The position numbers and the translations under genes were made by a program. 53,544 nt of DNA from a bacterium HR15 (GTDB lineage Bacteria; Armatimonadota; Fimbriimonadia; Fimbriimonadales; GBS-DC), in assembly GCA_002898555.1 (NCBI GenBank), contig BEHR01000028.1, positions 1 through 53,544 on the forward strand. The letters run 5' to 3'. Positions 7,282-53,544 of this stretch are shown in pieces (position 1 is the stretch's first letter; each line of letters opens with the position of its first letter). Below the pieces are notes generated by a model. That model was given only the letters and a program-made list of their open reading frames with translations. It was not told the origin of the DNA and searched no databases.

Positions 7282-7327
7282 CCCTTGCTCCTATTAGAGG
7301 GATACAGGGGTACGGTTGGAAATACGC

Positions 7328-7428
7328 TGGAGGGCGAGGCTTCTGTCGAGCCGTCACAATTTTCTTTTCCGACCCAGACGCAAAATTTTGTGGGAGTTTT
7401 TTCGGCTCGCCAAGAGGCTCGCCCTCCA
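7328..7428. repeat. Inverted pair of GGAGGGCGAGGC repeats around an A/T-rich core
   Basis: A 26-bp unit at 7328-7353 (beginning TGGAGGGCGAGGC) is repeated in inverted orientation at 7403-7428 (ending GCTCGCCCTCCA), 22 of 26 positions matching. Between them lies a degenerate copy of the A/T palindrome (7358-7394, GACCCAGACGCAAAATTTTG). The same 26-bp unit occurs at 19274-19402 and 36181-36236. It lies between the divergent peptidase and NurA-like genes. Confidence 0.7.
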
Positions 7429-7482
7429 AAGCTTTCTCTAAGCAAAGCAGGATTCCTCGCCGCTTGCCGAATCTAACTGTTG

Positions 7483-9951: not shown

Positions 9952-10008
9952 ATTCTTGTCTTCGGGGTTGAAGGAAAAATTTTGCTCTGGGTCAGAGAAG
10001 AAATTTCA
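9947..10008. repeat. A/T-armed palindromic repeat between kinase and regulator genes
   Basis: A degenerate member of the palindrome family. It contains GAAGGAAAAATTTTG and the diagnostic GGGTCAGAG followed by A-rich and AAATTTC sequence. It fills the 75-bp gap between histidine kinase stop and response regulator start. Confidence 0.6.
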
Positions 10009-10026: not shown

Positions 10027-10677
10027 ATGGAGATCGTGCGTTTGATCATAGCGGAAGATGAAGCGCCGCTGCGCGAGCATTTAGCAGAGATTTTGCAGAG
10101 CGAGGGCACGATTGACCTGCTCGGATGCGCTACCGATGGTGAGCAGGTGTTGCAACTTGCCATGCAGTTCGAACCCCATGTTGCGCTGATGGACATCAAG
10201 ATGCCTCGTATGAACGGCATCGAAGCGACTCGCCGCATTAAACAGGTGATGCCCCGTATCCAGGTGGTCATCTGGACGATCTATGCCGATGACCAGAATG
10301 TGTTCGAGGCGCTCAAGGCTGGTGCGATTGGCTATCTGCTTAAAGATAGCCCACCCAGCGAGATTGTGCAAGGTGTCCATGCAGCGGCGCGGGGCGAATC
10401 ACAACTGCATCCAGCGGTCGCTGCGCGCGTGATCCAGGAGTTCCAGCGCGTGCACACCGAGCATGCAAGAGCGTCGCACTTGCTGGCGGAGCTGACCGCG
10501 CGTGAACTCGATATTCTGCGCATGATCGCCCAAGGCAAGCGTAATAAGGAGATTGCGGACGCGCTCTTTATCACCGAAAAGACCGTCAAAAACTACATCT
10601 CCAACATCCTGTTCAAGTTGCAGGTGAACTCGCGCACGGAAGCGGCACTGCTCGCGGTGCGTCAAGGGCTGGTCTGA
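10027..10677 (+). CDS. NarL/FixJ-family response regulator
   Basis: 216 residues from ATG 10027, preceded by GGGAGGG. The receiver domain shows the acidic pair (IIAEDEAP), the phosphoacceptor Asp56 in HVALMDIKMP, and the conserved Lys in GYLLKDSPPSE. The C-terminal LuxR-type helix-turn-helix (about residues 150-212) contains LTARELDILRMIAQGKRNKEI and TVKNYISNILFKL, typical of NarL regulators that bind DNA as dimers after phosphorylation. It pairs with the kinase directly upstream. Targets are unknown; the HMA protein at the head of the operon is a candidate. Confidence 0.9.
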   Translation: MEIVRLIIAEDEAPLREHLAEILQSEGTIDLLGCATDGEQVLQLAMQFEPHVALMDIKMPRMNGIEATRRIKQVMPRIQVVIWTIYADDQNVFEALKAGAIGYLLKDSPPSEIVQGVHAAARGESQLHPAVAARVIQEFQRVHTEHARASHLLAELTARELDILRMIAQGKRNKEIADALFITEKTVKNYISNILFKLQVNSRTEAALLAVRQGLV

Positions 10678-15769: not shown

Positions 15770-15832
15770 GAAAATTTTGCCGACTGGGTCGGAGAAAAAA
15801 TTTTTGTCCGCAGCGGGGTCAGAGAAAATTTC
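15770..15832. repeat. A/T-armed palindromic repeat between divergent genes
   Basis: Contains two partly overlapping copies of the family core: CTGGGTCGGAGAAAAAATTTT and GGGGTCAGAGAAAATTTC, bounded by GAAAATTTTG at the left. It lies between the protease (start 15743) and ceramidase (start 15925) genes, where both promoters must be. Confidence 0.65.
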
Positions 15833-15924
15833 ACGCTTTGACCGCTTTCTGAATCGCGTCGGGATCATGCAGGGAAAAAACCGCGCCTATCGAACGATTG
15901 TTCGACGCAGGAGGTGAGTTACTG

Positions 15925-19213: not shown

Positions 19214-19465
19214 CCTTAGAGACTGTTTTAAGAATGGTAAGGGCAGACTGACGCGTCTACCCGAAACTCGCACTGGAGGGCGAGCGTCCCCGCAAGCCGA
19301 CATGCGTGGCGAAGACAGTCCTGTCCCAGCACGGCGTCGGTTGGAACGGCTCGGCGGGAGCCTCGCCCTCCAGATTCGGCTCGGCGGGAGCCTCGCCCTC
19401 CAAAATGCCTTAGCGTGAATGCCTGCTCGTCTCCTTGAACTCCAGTTTTTAAACGGTCTCTTAGG
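19214..19465. repeat. MITE-like element with terminal inverted repeats and internal GGAGGGCGAG repeats
   Basis: Imperfect 24-bp terminal inverted repeats (left 19214-19237, right 19442-19465, 19 of 24 matching; they begin CCTTAGAGAC and CCTAAGAGAC when read inward) enclose about 200 bp. Inside, the GC-rich 26-bp unit appears once forward (19274-19299) and twice, tandemly, in reverse (19347-19372 and 19377-19402). No coding capacity. It fills the 340-bp gap between endonuclease V and L25 genes. Confidence 0.6.
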
Positions 19466-25828: not shown

Positions 25829-25860
25829 GGTTCACCTCTCGCTGGCATAGGCATCCTAAA

Positions 25861-25953
25861 GTTTTTTCTCTGACCCAGCTGAGTACCCCAGAGAAAAAAT
25901 TTTTCCTGAAATTTTTTCTCTGACCCAGCTGAGTATCCCAGAGAAAAAATTTC
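25861..25953. repeat. Tandem pair of A/T-armed palindromes (best copies of the family)
   Basis: Two copies with a 50-bp period and one difference in the 41-bp core. The second (25908-25953) has perfect 15-nt arms, GAAATTTTTTCTCTG and CAGAGAAAAAATTTC, around a 16-nt centre containing ACCCAGCTGAGTA. The pair sits between the purM stop (25981) and the Gfo/Idh start (25828), both minus-strand genes. Confidence 0.85.
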
Positions 25954-25980
25954 ATCGGTTGGGGTGCGCTTGGCACTTGC

Positions 25981-27028: not shown

Positions 27029-27038
27029 CCATGCAGCT

Positions 27039-27092
27039 GAAATCTTTCCTCTAATCCAGCTGCGCTCAAAATTTGCTTCAGAGAAAAATTTC
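27039..27092. repeat. Degenerate A/T-armed palindrome between purM and a divergent gene
   Basis: Outer arms GAAATC...CCTCT and CAGAGAAAAATTTC are recognisable; the centre is longer than in other copies. It lies 11 bp upstream of the purM -10. Confidence 0.55.
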
Positions 27093-27155
27093 AGCGGTCG
27101 CTTGCAAGGCAACGAAGTGCGGAGGGCAGTGATGCTTTGGGAATGGGCGATTCGG

Positions 27156-28013: not shown

Positions 28014-28043
28014 CCATATGGCAGCCAAGCGAGATAGTCGCGT

Positions 28044-28093
28044 GAAATTTTTCTCTGGGGTACTCAGCGCAGCTGGGTCAGAGAAAAAATTTT
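28044..28093 (+). repeat. A/T-armed palindrome in the probable ftsH leader
   Basis: Arms GAAATTTTTCTCTG and CAGAGAAAAAATTTT around a centre reading GGGTACTCAGCGCAGCTGGGT. The centre is the reverse orientation of the copies at 25861-25953 with about 4-5 nt inserted. It lies 41 bp upstream of the ftsH start. Confidence 0.75.
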
Positions 28094-28134
28094 AGGATAG
28101 GCACATATAACAAACTTGGTTCTATAGGAGGCGT

Positions 28135-33810: not shown

Positions 33811-35409
33811 CTATTCGCAGTCAGCATCCTGGTTCCTGCCAAGACGGATTCGCTGTAGAGAAACGGCTCGGCTCCGGAGCGCATTTATAAGGGCGCGACT
33901 CAGTTCGTCGGCTGTATAGGGGGCATGTCCTTCGCAGGCGAGGGTCGCACCTGCGGCCGCATGCAGATATGCGCCTGCAAGGGCCGCTTCCCGCGGCGCT
34001 AATCCCTGCGCCAATAAACCCGCAATGGCACCTGTCAGCACATCGCCGGAACCGCCCGTTGCCAAACTTGGCTCCGCAAACGGCACAATCCATGTGTCTG
34101 AACCATCGGTGATGACGCTATACGCGCCTTTCAGCACTATGGTTGCCCCATAACGCTCATGGAGCAACGCGGCCACATTCAGGCGGTCTTCCTGCACCTG
34201 ATGCGTTGCAATCTGCAGCAAGCGTGCCGCCTCGCCCGGATGGGGCGTTAAGACGGTCCATGGAGGCAGAGGCACCTCGCCCCCCAACCGCGCCATCCAG
34301 TTCAAGCCATCCGCATCGATGACCAATGGACGCTCCCGTTGGCTCCAGAGCGAGAGCAGCTCTCCGATGGCGCTTTCGGTCGGTGCCAGCTGCCCCAGCC
34401 CTGGTCCGAGTGCCAGCACATCGTATCGTGCCCATCGCTCGCTGAGGTAGCGCACACCATCGCGTGTGAGCGCGCCTGTGTCGCCGTCTGGCAAGGGGAT
34501 GGTCATCAGTTCGGGATAGAAGCTGGCGACCTGGGGCTGAATGCGGGCGGGTGTTGCTACAGTTGCCAATCCTGCGCCCACACGCAGCGCGGAAATCCCT
34601 GCCAGAGCAGGCGCACCCACCATGCCGGGCGAACCACCCACCACCAGCACATGCCCGCGATGCCCCTTGTGCGCGTCGGGCGACCAAGCAGGCAACATCG
34701 CACCTATGTCTCTGGCGTTAAGCAATCGCGCTGCGCTTTGCAGGTCCGCCATGCGTCGGGGCACAATCCCAATCGGCACAGCCACCCACTTGCCCACGCA
34801 GCGCGGTCCCGCATTTTGAAAGAAGCCCAGTTTGGGCAGTGCCATCGTCACCGTGTAAGTGGCACGAATGGCAATACCCAGCTCGCGCCCTGTATCTGCA
34901 TCTAACCCGGAAGGGATATCGACCGCCACGATGGGACGCTCACTCTGATTCATCACCTCGATGAGCGTGCGGTACGGTTCGCGCACTTCACCTTGCAGCC
35001 CTGTGCCCAACAGGGCATCGACCAGCACCTCCTCCTCACGGAACAGTGCAGGGTCGGGGTTTGGAGGAATGGGCAGCGCGGGGATGTCGTAAGCGCGTAC
35101 TATGTGCCATTGCACGGCGGCATCGCCTGTGAACTCGCTGGGGTCCGTAGCAAGCCAGAGATGAACCGATGCGCCGGCTTCATGCAGGTAGCGAGCGACT
35201 ACCAGCCCGTCGCCTCCATTGTTGCCCTTGCCCACGATAATCGCGACACGGCGCCCTTGAATCGGGCTGAACCACTCACAGAGGTGGCGGAACACACCCT
35301 GCCCCGCCCGCTCCATCAGGATCAGGGAGGGTACGCCATCCTCTTCGATGGTCGCCCTGTCTAAGGCGCGCATCTCCGCAGCACTCACGATGGGTGTCCC
35401 CCAACGCAT
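33811..35409 (-). CDS. nnr: Bifunctional NAD(P)H-hydrate epimerase / ADP-dependent dehydratase
   Basis: 532 residues from ATG 35409 (MRWGTPIVSAAEMRALDRAT), the typical start; GAGGGGG lies 11-12 nt upstream. The N-terminal epimerase domain (about 1-215) has VGKGNNGGDGLVVARYLHEAG and VAVDIPSGLDADTG. The C-terminal ribokinase-like dehydratase (about 230-525) has GHRGHVLVVGGSPGMVGAPALAGISALRVGAG, VLTPHPGEAARLL, and the ATP/ADP loop ATGGSGDVLTGAIAGLLAQG. Together they repair hydrated NADH and NADPH, which form by heat or enzyme error. The DNA methyltransferase follows in the same operon. Confidence 0.93.
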   Translation of the reverse strand: MRWGTPIVSAAEMRALDRATIEEDGVPSLILMERAGQGVFRHLCEWFSPIQGRRVAIIVGKGNNGGDGLVVARYLHEAGASVHLWLATDPSEFTGDAAVQWHIVRAYDIPALPIPPNPDPALFREEEVLVDALLGTGLQGEVREPYRTLIEVMNQSERPIVAVDIPSGLDADTGRELGIAIRATYTVTMALPKLGFFQNAGPRCVGKWVAVPIGIVPRRMADLQSAARLLNARDIGAMLPAWSPDAHKGHRGHVLVVGGSPGMVGAPALAGISALRVGAGLATVATPARIQPQVASFYPELMTIPLPDGDTGALTRDGVRYLSERWARYDVLALGPGLGQLAPTESAIGELLSLWSQRERPLVIDADGLNWMARLGGEVPLPPWTVLTPHPGEAARLLQIATHQVQEDRLNVAALLHERYGATIVLKGAYSVITDGSDTWIVPFAEPSLATGGSGDVLTGAIAGLLAQGLAPREAALAGAYLHAAAGATLACEGHAPYTADELSRALINALRSRAVSLQRIRLGRNQDADCE

Positions 35410-36150: not shown

Positions 36151-36460
36151 GGAGGGTGTTCGAAAATTCATGTGGCTCGCTGGAAGGTGAGGCTCCCGCC
36201 GAACCGAGATTGGAGGGCGAGGCTCCCGCCGAGCCGTTAAAGAATATGGGCATAGGTTTTTGAGAGCAGACGCGCAGGTTCGCCCCTCCACGCTGGGAGG
36301 CTCGCCTTCCACGCCCCTCGCCCTCTGGGAGAGGGTCTGGAGGTGAGGGTATGGGGCAGGCACGGAGGTCTGCCCATACACGCCAGGAGGCTCGCCCTCC
36401 AGTTGGGGCGATGGGTGAGCAGCGAGTGGCGAGTGGTGAGCGGATTTTCGAACACCCTCC
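36151..36460. repeat. 310-bp MITE-like element with perfect 17-bp terminal inverted repeats
   Basis: GGAGGGTGTTCGAAAAT (36151-36167) and its exact complement (36444-36460) bound the element. Inside are two tandem 26-bp GC-rich units (36181-36206 and 36211-36236, beginning TGGARGG), two partial inverted copies (near 36295-36311 and 36384-36401), and a GGGGCAGGC / GTCTGCCC segment. There is no open frame of note and no clear target-site duplication. This accounts for nearly all of the 418-bp gap between the ArsR gene and the tRNA. Confidence 0.75.
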
Positions 36461-53455: not shown

Positions 53456-53544
53456 GGCAGACACAGGGGTCTGCCCCTACATCGTTTTGGATAGGCAGAC
53501 ACAGGGGTCTGCCCCTACATCGTTTTGGATAGGCAGACACAGGG
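53456..53544. repeat. Tandem 38-bp repeat running off the window end
   Basis: Two exact full copies (53456-53493, 53494-53531) and the first 13 nt of a third. Each unit holds the inverted repeat GGCAGAC/GTCTGCC around ACAGGG. Whole units, including the ATCGTTTTGGATA linker, are identical, so this is not a CRISPR array. Confidence 0.85.

Follow-up and report, generated by a model that had tools for sequence, protein, structure and literature searches.

Short palindromes of bacterium HR15, probably mobile, are nested in one another and in older repeats

Bacterial MITEs are short elements with terminal inverted repeats and no coding capacity. Other short bacterial palindromes include the GTAG/CGTC-tagged REPs, whose stem-loop has the tetranucleotide GTAG or CGTC, unpaired, at one of its ends; dimers of these REPs are reported to lie in some cases within other palindromes and in others in frame within genes (Di Nocera et al. 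2013, PMC3733652). Rickettsia palindromic elements (RPE) insert in frame into existing ORFs and add a peptide to the product (PMC3767692, PMC3733652). In the organelles of Volvox carteri, hairpins of about 50 nt, AT-rich in the mtDNA, lie mostly in noncoding DNA in both orientations and are commonly inserted into each other, forming larger elements (PMC2670323). Nested palindromes are already known, from Volvox organelles and, at one level, from bacterial REPs; those of the algal organelles had been noted without a mechanism.

The palindromes described here come from the draft genome of bacterium HR15 (3.04 Mb, 72 contigs), and our starting point was one of its contigs, C28, whose 53,544 nucleotides are the window of this analysis. 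The initial annotation of the window had described a family of A/T-armed palindromes defined by a tandem pair, and this family is real. The pair was located, its two copies being 94% identical at a spacing of 50, and the second copy folds into a 15-bp hairpin (-11.5 kcal/mol as DNA, z -5.6). The 17-mer TTTTTCTCTGACCCAGC was matched six times in the window with at most 3 mismatches, with 0.06 matches expected from shuffles, and the 13-mer AAATTTTTCTCTG twelve times with at most 2 mismatches, with 0.59 expected. All the other sites listed in that annotation hold members as well; copies occur in both orientations, and central insertions are present, the inserted piece being another palindrome, whole or as a remnant (Table 1).

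Table 1. Palindrome modules and host palindromes located in the window.
Feature	Position	Strand	Remark
F-family palindrome (GGAGGGCGAGG...CTCGCCCTCC)	about 7327-7429		Host of C remnant
C half-module and CAAAATTTTG remnant	7357-7390	+	Within F palindrome 7327-7429
A half, then CAAAATTTT remnant	9973-10008	-	Just upstream of gene starting near 10027
A half enclosing a second, hybrid A/B half and CAAAATTTT remnant	15770-15833	-	Right halves deleted
A module, tandem copy 1, 48 nt	25857-25904	+	TGAAAT-ended type, here TAAAGT; arms around GACCCAGCTGAGTACCCC
A module, tandem copy 2, 48 nt	25907-25954	+	
Decayed A module and remnant of inner CAAAATTT-ended module	27038-27093	+	Read against module consensus
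A module, intact	28042-28094	-	Orientation opposite to tandem pair
D-family palindrome without insertion	36340-36385	-	Empty version of the loop occupied by C elsewhere

The stretches around the matches revealed at least three related sister modules of about 48-53 bp, namely A (the palindrome of the initial annotation), B and C. They have a common core, GACCC...GGGTACCCC, and different self-complementary arms of 15-17 bp (TTTTTTCTCTG in A, TTTTCTTCTCCG in B and TTTTCTTTTCCG in C). The A modules are of two types: those ending in TGAAAT are usually outermost and lie in unique DNA, with unique flanks for most copies, and those ending in CAAAAT, the ends also found in B and C, are usually nested. 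TGAAAT-ended copies are preceded by CC, with C at position -1 in 28 and at -2 in 23 of 31 copies, and a G stands at +4 in 23 of the 31. Tandem arrays are common, with periods of 50, 55 and 105.

The initial annotation had suggested a genome-wide search, and had named a total of only a few copies as the outcome that would speak against a dispersed family. With at most 3 mismatches the arm TTTTTCTCTGACCCAGCTG had 117 matches in the 3.04 Mb genome, and the arm of B/C had 114; the reversed control of each had none. The copy number is underestimated, since contigs C14, C32, C34 and C39 (at their ends) and the stretches L099, L100 and L101 break off inside palindrome arrays, and the presence of such arrays at contig ends indicates that the palindromes break the assembly. 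No convincing copy of the A arm was found in 60 relatives, near-matches to the A, B and C arms in relatives were scattered and stayed at control level, and no match to the modules was found in viral contigs, plasmids or phages. The sole match in contigs of another genome, a Clostridiaceae MAG, was rejected as a chance AT-rich match. Among the genomes searched, the A, B and C modules are thus confined to one. All copies come from this one draft genome, and empty sites were judged against relatives at the level of the family, with no congener among them.

Nesting was scored by treating the arms as brackets. Perfectly balanced clusters made up 51 of the 103, and 22 of these were nested to a depth of 2 or more, the deepest being the fourfold A(B(C(A))) at C26:51345-51488. 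A triple nest forms one long hairpin of -52.8 kcal/mol as DNA (z -11.9). Nesting is reciprocal among the modules, and guests are found in both orientations, even within the same host. A module was never found directly inside one of its own family in balanced form: this combination accounted for 0 of 40 balanced nestings against 13.9 expected by permutation, the minimum of 20,000 permutations being 4, and for 0 of 37 against 13.2 when nestings were collapsed by locus. Adjacent A-A half-modules occur twice, unbalanced, and the likely cases, one of which is at 15770-15833 in the window, have hybrid arms.

The modules also have hosts of other families. The D palindrome, GTAGGGGCAGACC..CGTGTCTGCCCC, begins with GTAGGGGC and belongs to a GTAG-tagged, REP-like family that is present in 14 of 17 genomes of the same family, which makes it the older repeat. 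Its loop, CGTG/TCTGCCC, is intact at some loci, and at about 16-18 others C is inserted at the very bond marked by the slash, so that the intact loci are paralogous empty sites. Different nesting depths occur in this same D site, and no palindromic loop insertions were seen in the D repeats of same-family relatives. In the window, D is also found at 53456-53544, where tandem copies run off the contig end. The F family (GGAGGGCGAGGCTCCCGCCGAGCC), with 155 matches in the genome and none in 30 relatives, occurs in the window at 7327-7430, 19273-19404 and 36180-36403. Its repeats are often in tandem at 30-nt spacing and sometimes flank composites of D and C.

Gene context was explored in 483 kb of stretches centred on the matches, 83% of which is coding; genes were called by a home-made hexamer score and not by a standard gene finder. 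The family had been described as confined to intergenic DNA. This is correct within the window and fails genome-wide, where 9 of 119 sampled sites overlap called genes (about 8 of them credibly) and 110 lie outside; the sequence is far from being as common in genes as outside them, an outcome that had been named as contrary to the initial description. Intergenic sites fall into codirectional, divergent and convergent intervals in proportions close to intergenic length, and for many copies the nearest start codon is no more than 100 bp away. Relative to codirectional flanking genes, TGAAAT-ended A modules were in the opposite orientation in 21 cases and in the same orientation in 9. This orientation, together with the CC flank, may come from a preference for CCTCC, to which Shine-Dalgarno sites are complementary.

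In a few cases a copy is placed in frame within a protein gene. In a DUF1080-like gene a nested insert adds 51 codons, which 15 orthologues from the family lack. A nested palindrome has likewise given argC (C46:4625-5767) 26 codons that 12 orthologues do not have. Insertion of the modules as DNA is established by the empty sites that the relatives keep at these in-gene copies, as well as by the paralogous empty sites of D. For a copy in an amidase gene (C53) the alignment provided no usable empty site, the relatives being only ~43% identical. Elsewhere, a peptide chain release factor gene appears to take its last codons and its stop from an A module at C26:38098-38150.

The flanks and arms were further analyzed for traces of the insertion process. 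Direct repeats of 3-8 bp were in no excess over permuted flanks, a test that is blind to duplications of 0-2 bp. Complementarity of the unique flanks around outer elements was not above permutation (mean 4.23 vs 4.00 permuted, sd 0.21). As these flanks are not generally self-complementary, insertion into just any hairpin was rejected, and the apex preference is demonstrated for known palindrome families only. Changes in the arms were one-sided in the two best-sampled groups, with 42 single-arm and 0 compensated changes in TGAAAT-ended A and 17 and 0 in C, so these copies decay freely and their pairing is not kept by selection. In the small groups of B and CAAAAT-ended A, 4 and 8 cells had changed on both arms, partly at subtype ends.

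Taken together, we favor, with a probability of roughly 0.7, a model in which non-autonomous mobile palindromes were amplified in one lineage, with the apex of other palindromes as their preferred site of insertion. The mobility proposed in the initial annotation is in line with the copy number, the restriction to one genome, the nesting and the orthologous empty sites of two in-gene copies. As the results above show, modules A, B and C insert as DNA in either orientation, mostly between genes, without target duplications of at least 3 bp and very often exactly at the apex of another module or of an older D repeat. Repeated insertion produces nested hairpins up to four modules deep. The remnant structures suggest that these nests are afterwards expanded or eroded through local tandem duplication and through deletion between AAAATTTT repeats situated at the module ends. 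Judging by position, the target may be the loop that a hairpin or cruciform exposes as single-stranded DNA. An enzyme that transfers strands and acts in trans would have carried out the insertions and would be lost from the assembly or unrecognized in it, and the absence of target duplications would fit an enzyme of the HUH/Y1 type. One could go further and propose a transposition system that prefers hairpin apexes, excludes its own family in balanced form and is moved by a yet unrecognized enzyme; we put this forward as a tentative idea.

A linked TnpA-REP had been suggested as a transposase to look for and was rejected. The sole Y1-type protein of the genome (contig C10; L104, around 34510-34848; 251 aa) joins a Y1_Tnp domain to a sigma-70 region 4 domain, and its gene is flanked by a HIT-like gene on one side and one for a Der/EngA-like GTPase on the other. 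Its HUH position reads PNQVN, with both histidines lost, and that of relatives reads MPNQVH, which is half degenerate. No palindrome was present within the 9.5 kb examined around this gene. The search for a mobilizer covered the Y1, IS110 and serine resolvase families and recovered none; IS110 and serine resolvase had no match in the genome.

Apparent loop targeting would also result if a few composites had formed once and then spread as units, by recombination or on a larger carrier such as an F/D composite. Beyond D, many copies of D with C inside continue into common flanks, CTCCCAGCGTGTAGGGG ... TCTGCCCAAAAACCC, and some have F repeats on either side, so part of this nesting may indeed have spread as a ready-made composite. 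As an account of the whole it is unlikely, since at least five host-guest family combinations exist, in both relative orientations and also outside D, since the same D site is filled to different depths, and since most TGAAAT-ended A copies have flanks of their own. An account with no transposition step at all, in which template switching during replication and slippage grow hairpins or swap their centres in place, would agree with the lack of target duplications, with the arms of A, B and C differing coordinately on both sides, and with the tandem arrays and CAAAATTTTG remnants, which resemble slippage events. We hold it to be quite improbable: the centres of different hosts repeatedly hold distinct modules, in either orientation, and genes that have no insert in the relatives have gained whole modules, both of which require the insertion of sequence from elsewhere.

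The same copies could also be regulatory elements under selection, either transcribed hairpins (terminators, attenuators or mRNA stabilizers) or protein-binding sites. The strong intergenic bias, the very stable fold of the triple nest, the many copies close to start codons and the orientation bias of A speak for such a role. Against it, in the two best-sampled groups no arm mutation is matched by a compensating one, the different kinds of intergenic interval are used roughly as expected, some copies are inside genes, Rfam gave no match in the window except a tRNA, and the palindromes are absent from relatives that retain the same genes. A regulatory role is thus very unlikely to explain the family, and the selected RNA hairpin raised in the initial annotation found no support in the arm changes or in the mixed positions relative to genes.

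Compared with the described systems, the palindromes of HR15 are closest in behavior to those of Volvox carteri, but the latter belong to algal organelles and have different sequences and loops; in-gene copies and self-exclusion, both found here, are not given for them in the available part of the published account (PMC2670323). Within bacteria, the closest are the tagged REPs, REPIN/RAYT systems and RPE. The tagged REPs are likewise short, high-copy, lineage-specific and mostly intergenic, and the arm matches and site counts given above agree with these features. Modules A, B and C, however, lack a GTAG or CGTC tag, have symmetric TGAAAT or CAAAAT ends and are nested at multiple levels, and only the separate D repeat of this genome resembles a GTAG REP (PMC3733652). 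Like REPIN/RAYT systems, they are non-autonomous inverted-repeat mobile units with extragenic bias, but no RAYT is flanked by elements and the sole Y1-like protein is without the catalytic HUH histidines (PMC3116915). The in-frame inserts in the pre-existing ORFs of argC and the DUF1080-like gene recall RPE (PMC3767692), with which the modules are not known to share sequence; in HR15 most copies are outside genes, and those within them are few. The short terminal inverted repeats (15-17 bp) and the lack of coding capacity are those of MITEs; unlike these, the modules are not flanked by target-site duplications of at least 3 bp. A search of the Y1, IS110 and serine resolvase families turned up no parent insertion sequence. 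As a REP is excluded by the tag and the RAYT and a classical MITE by the target duplication, we rate the modules as a new family, and no named family with the same sequence was found, as the initial annotation had also stated. Against the open-access literature, the deep reciprocal nesting and the self-exclusion look new.

A bacterium with deep nesting, empty sites and a strict pattern of module entry is a tractable system for studying how hairpin DNA attracts insertion. It also bears on the spread of elements with no evident transposase, and on the tolerance of in-frame inserts in enzymes such as ArgC.

In addition to the families described above, a palindrome half, CAAAATTACCCTCCCCAACCA, adjoins C modules at C15:60032, C36:4813 and C3:52620, and probably represents a fourth related family.
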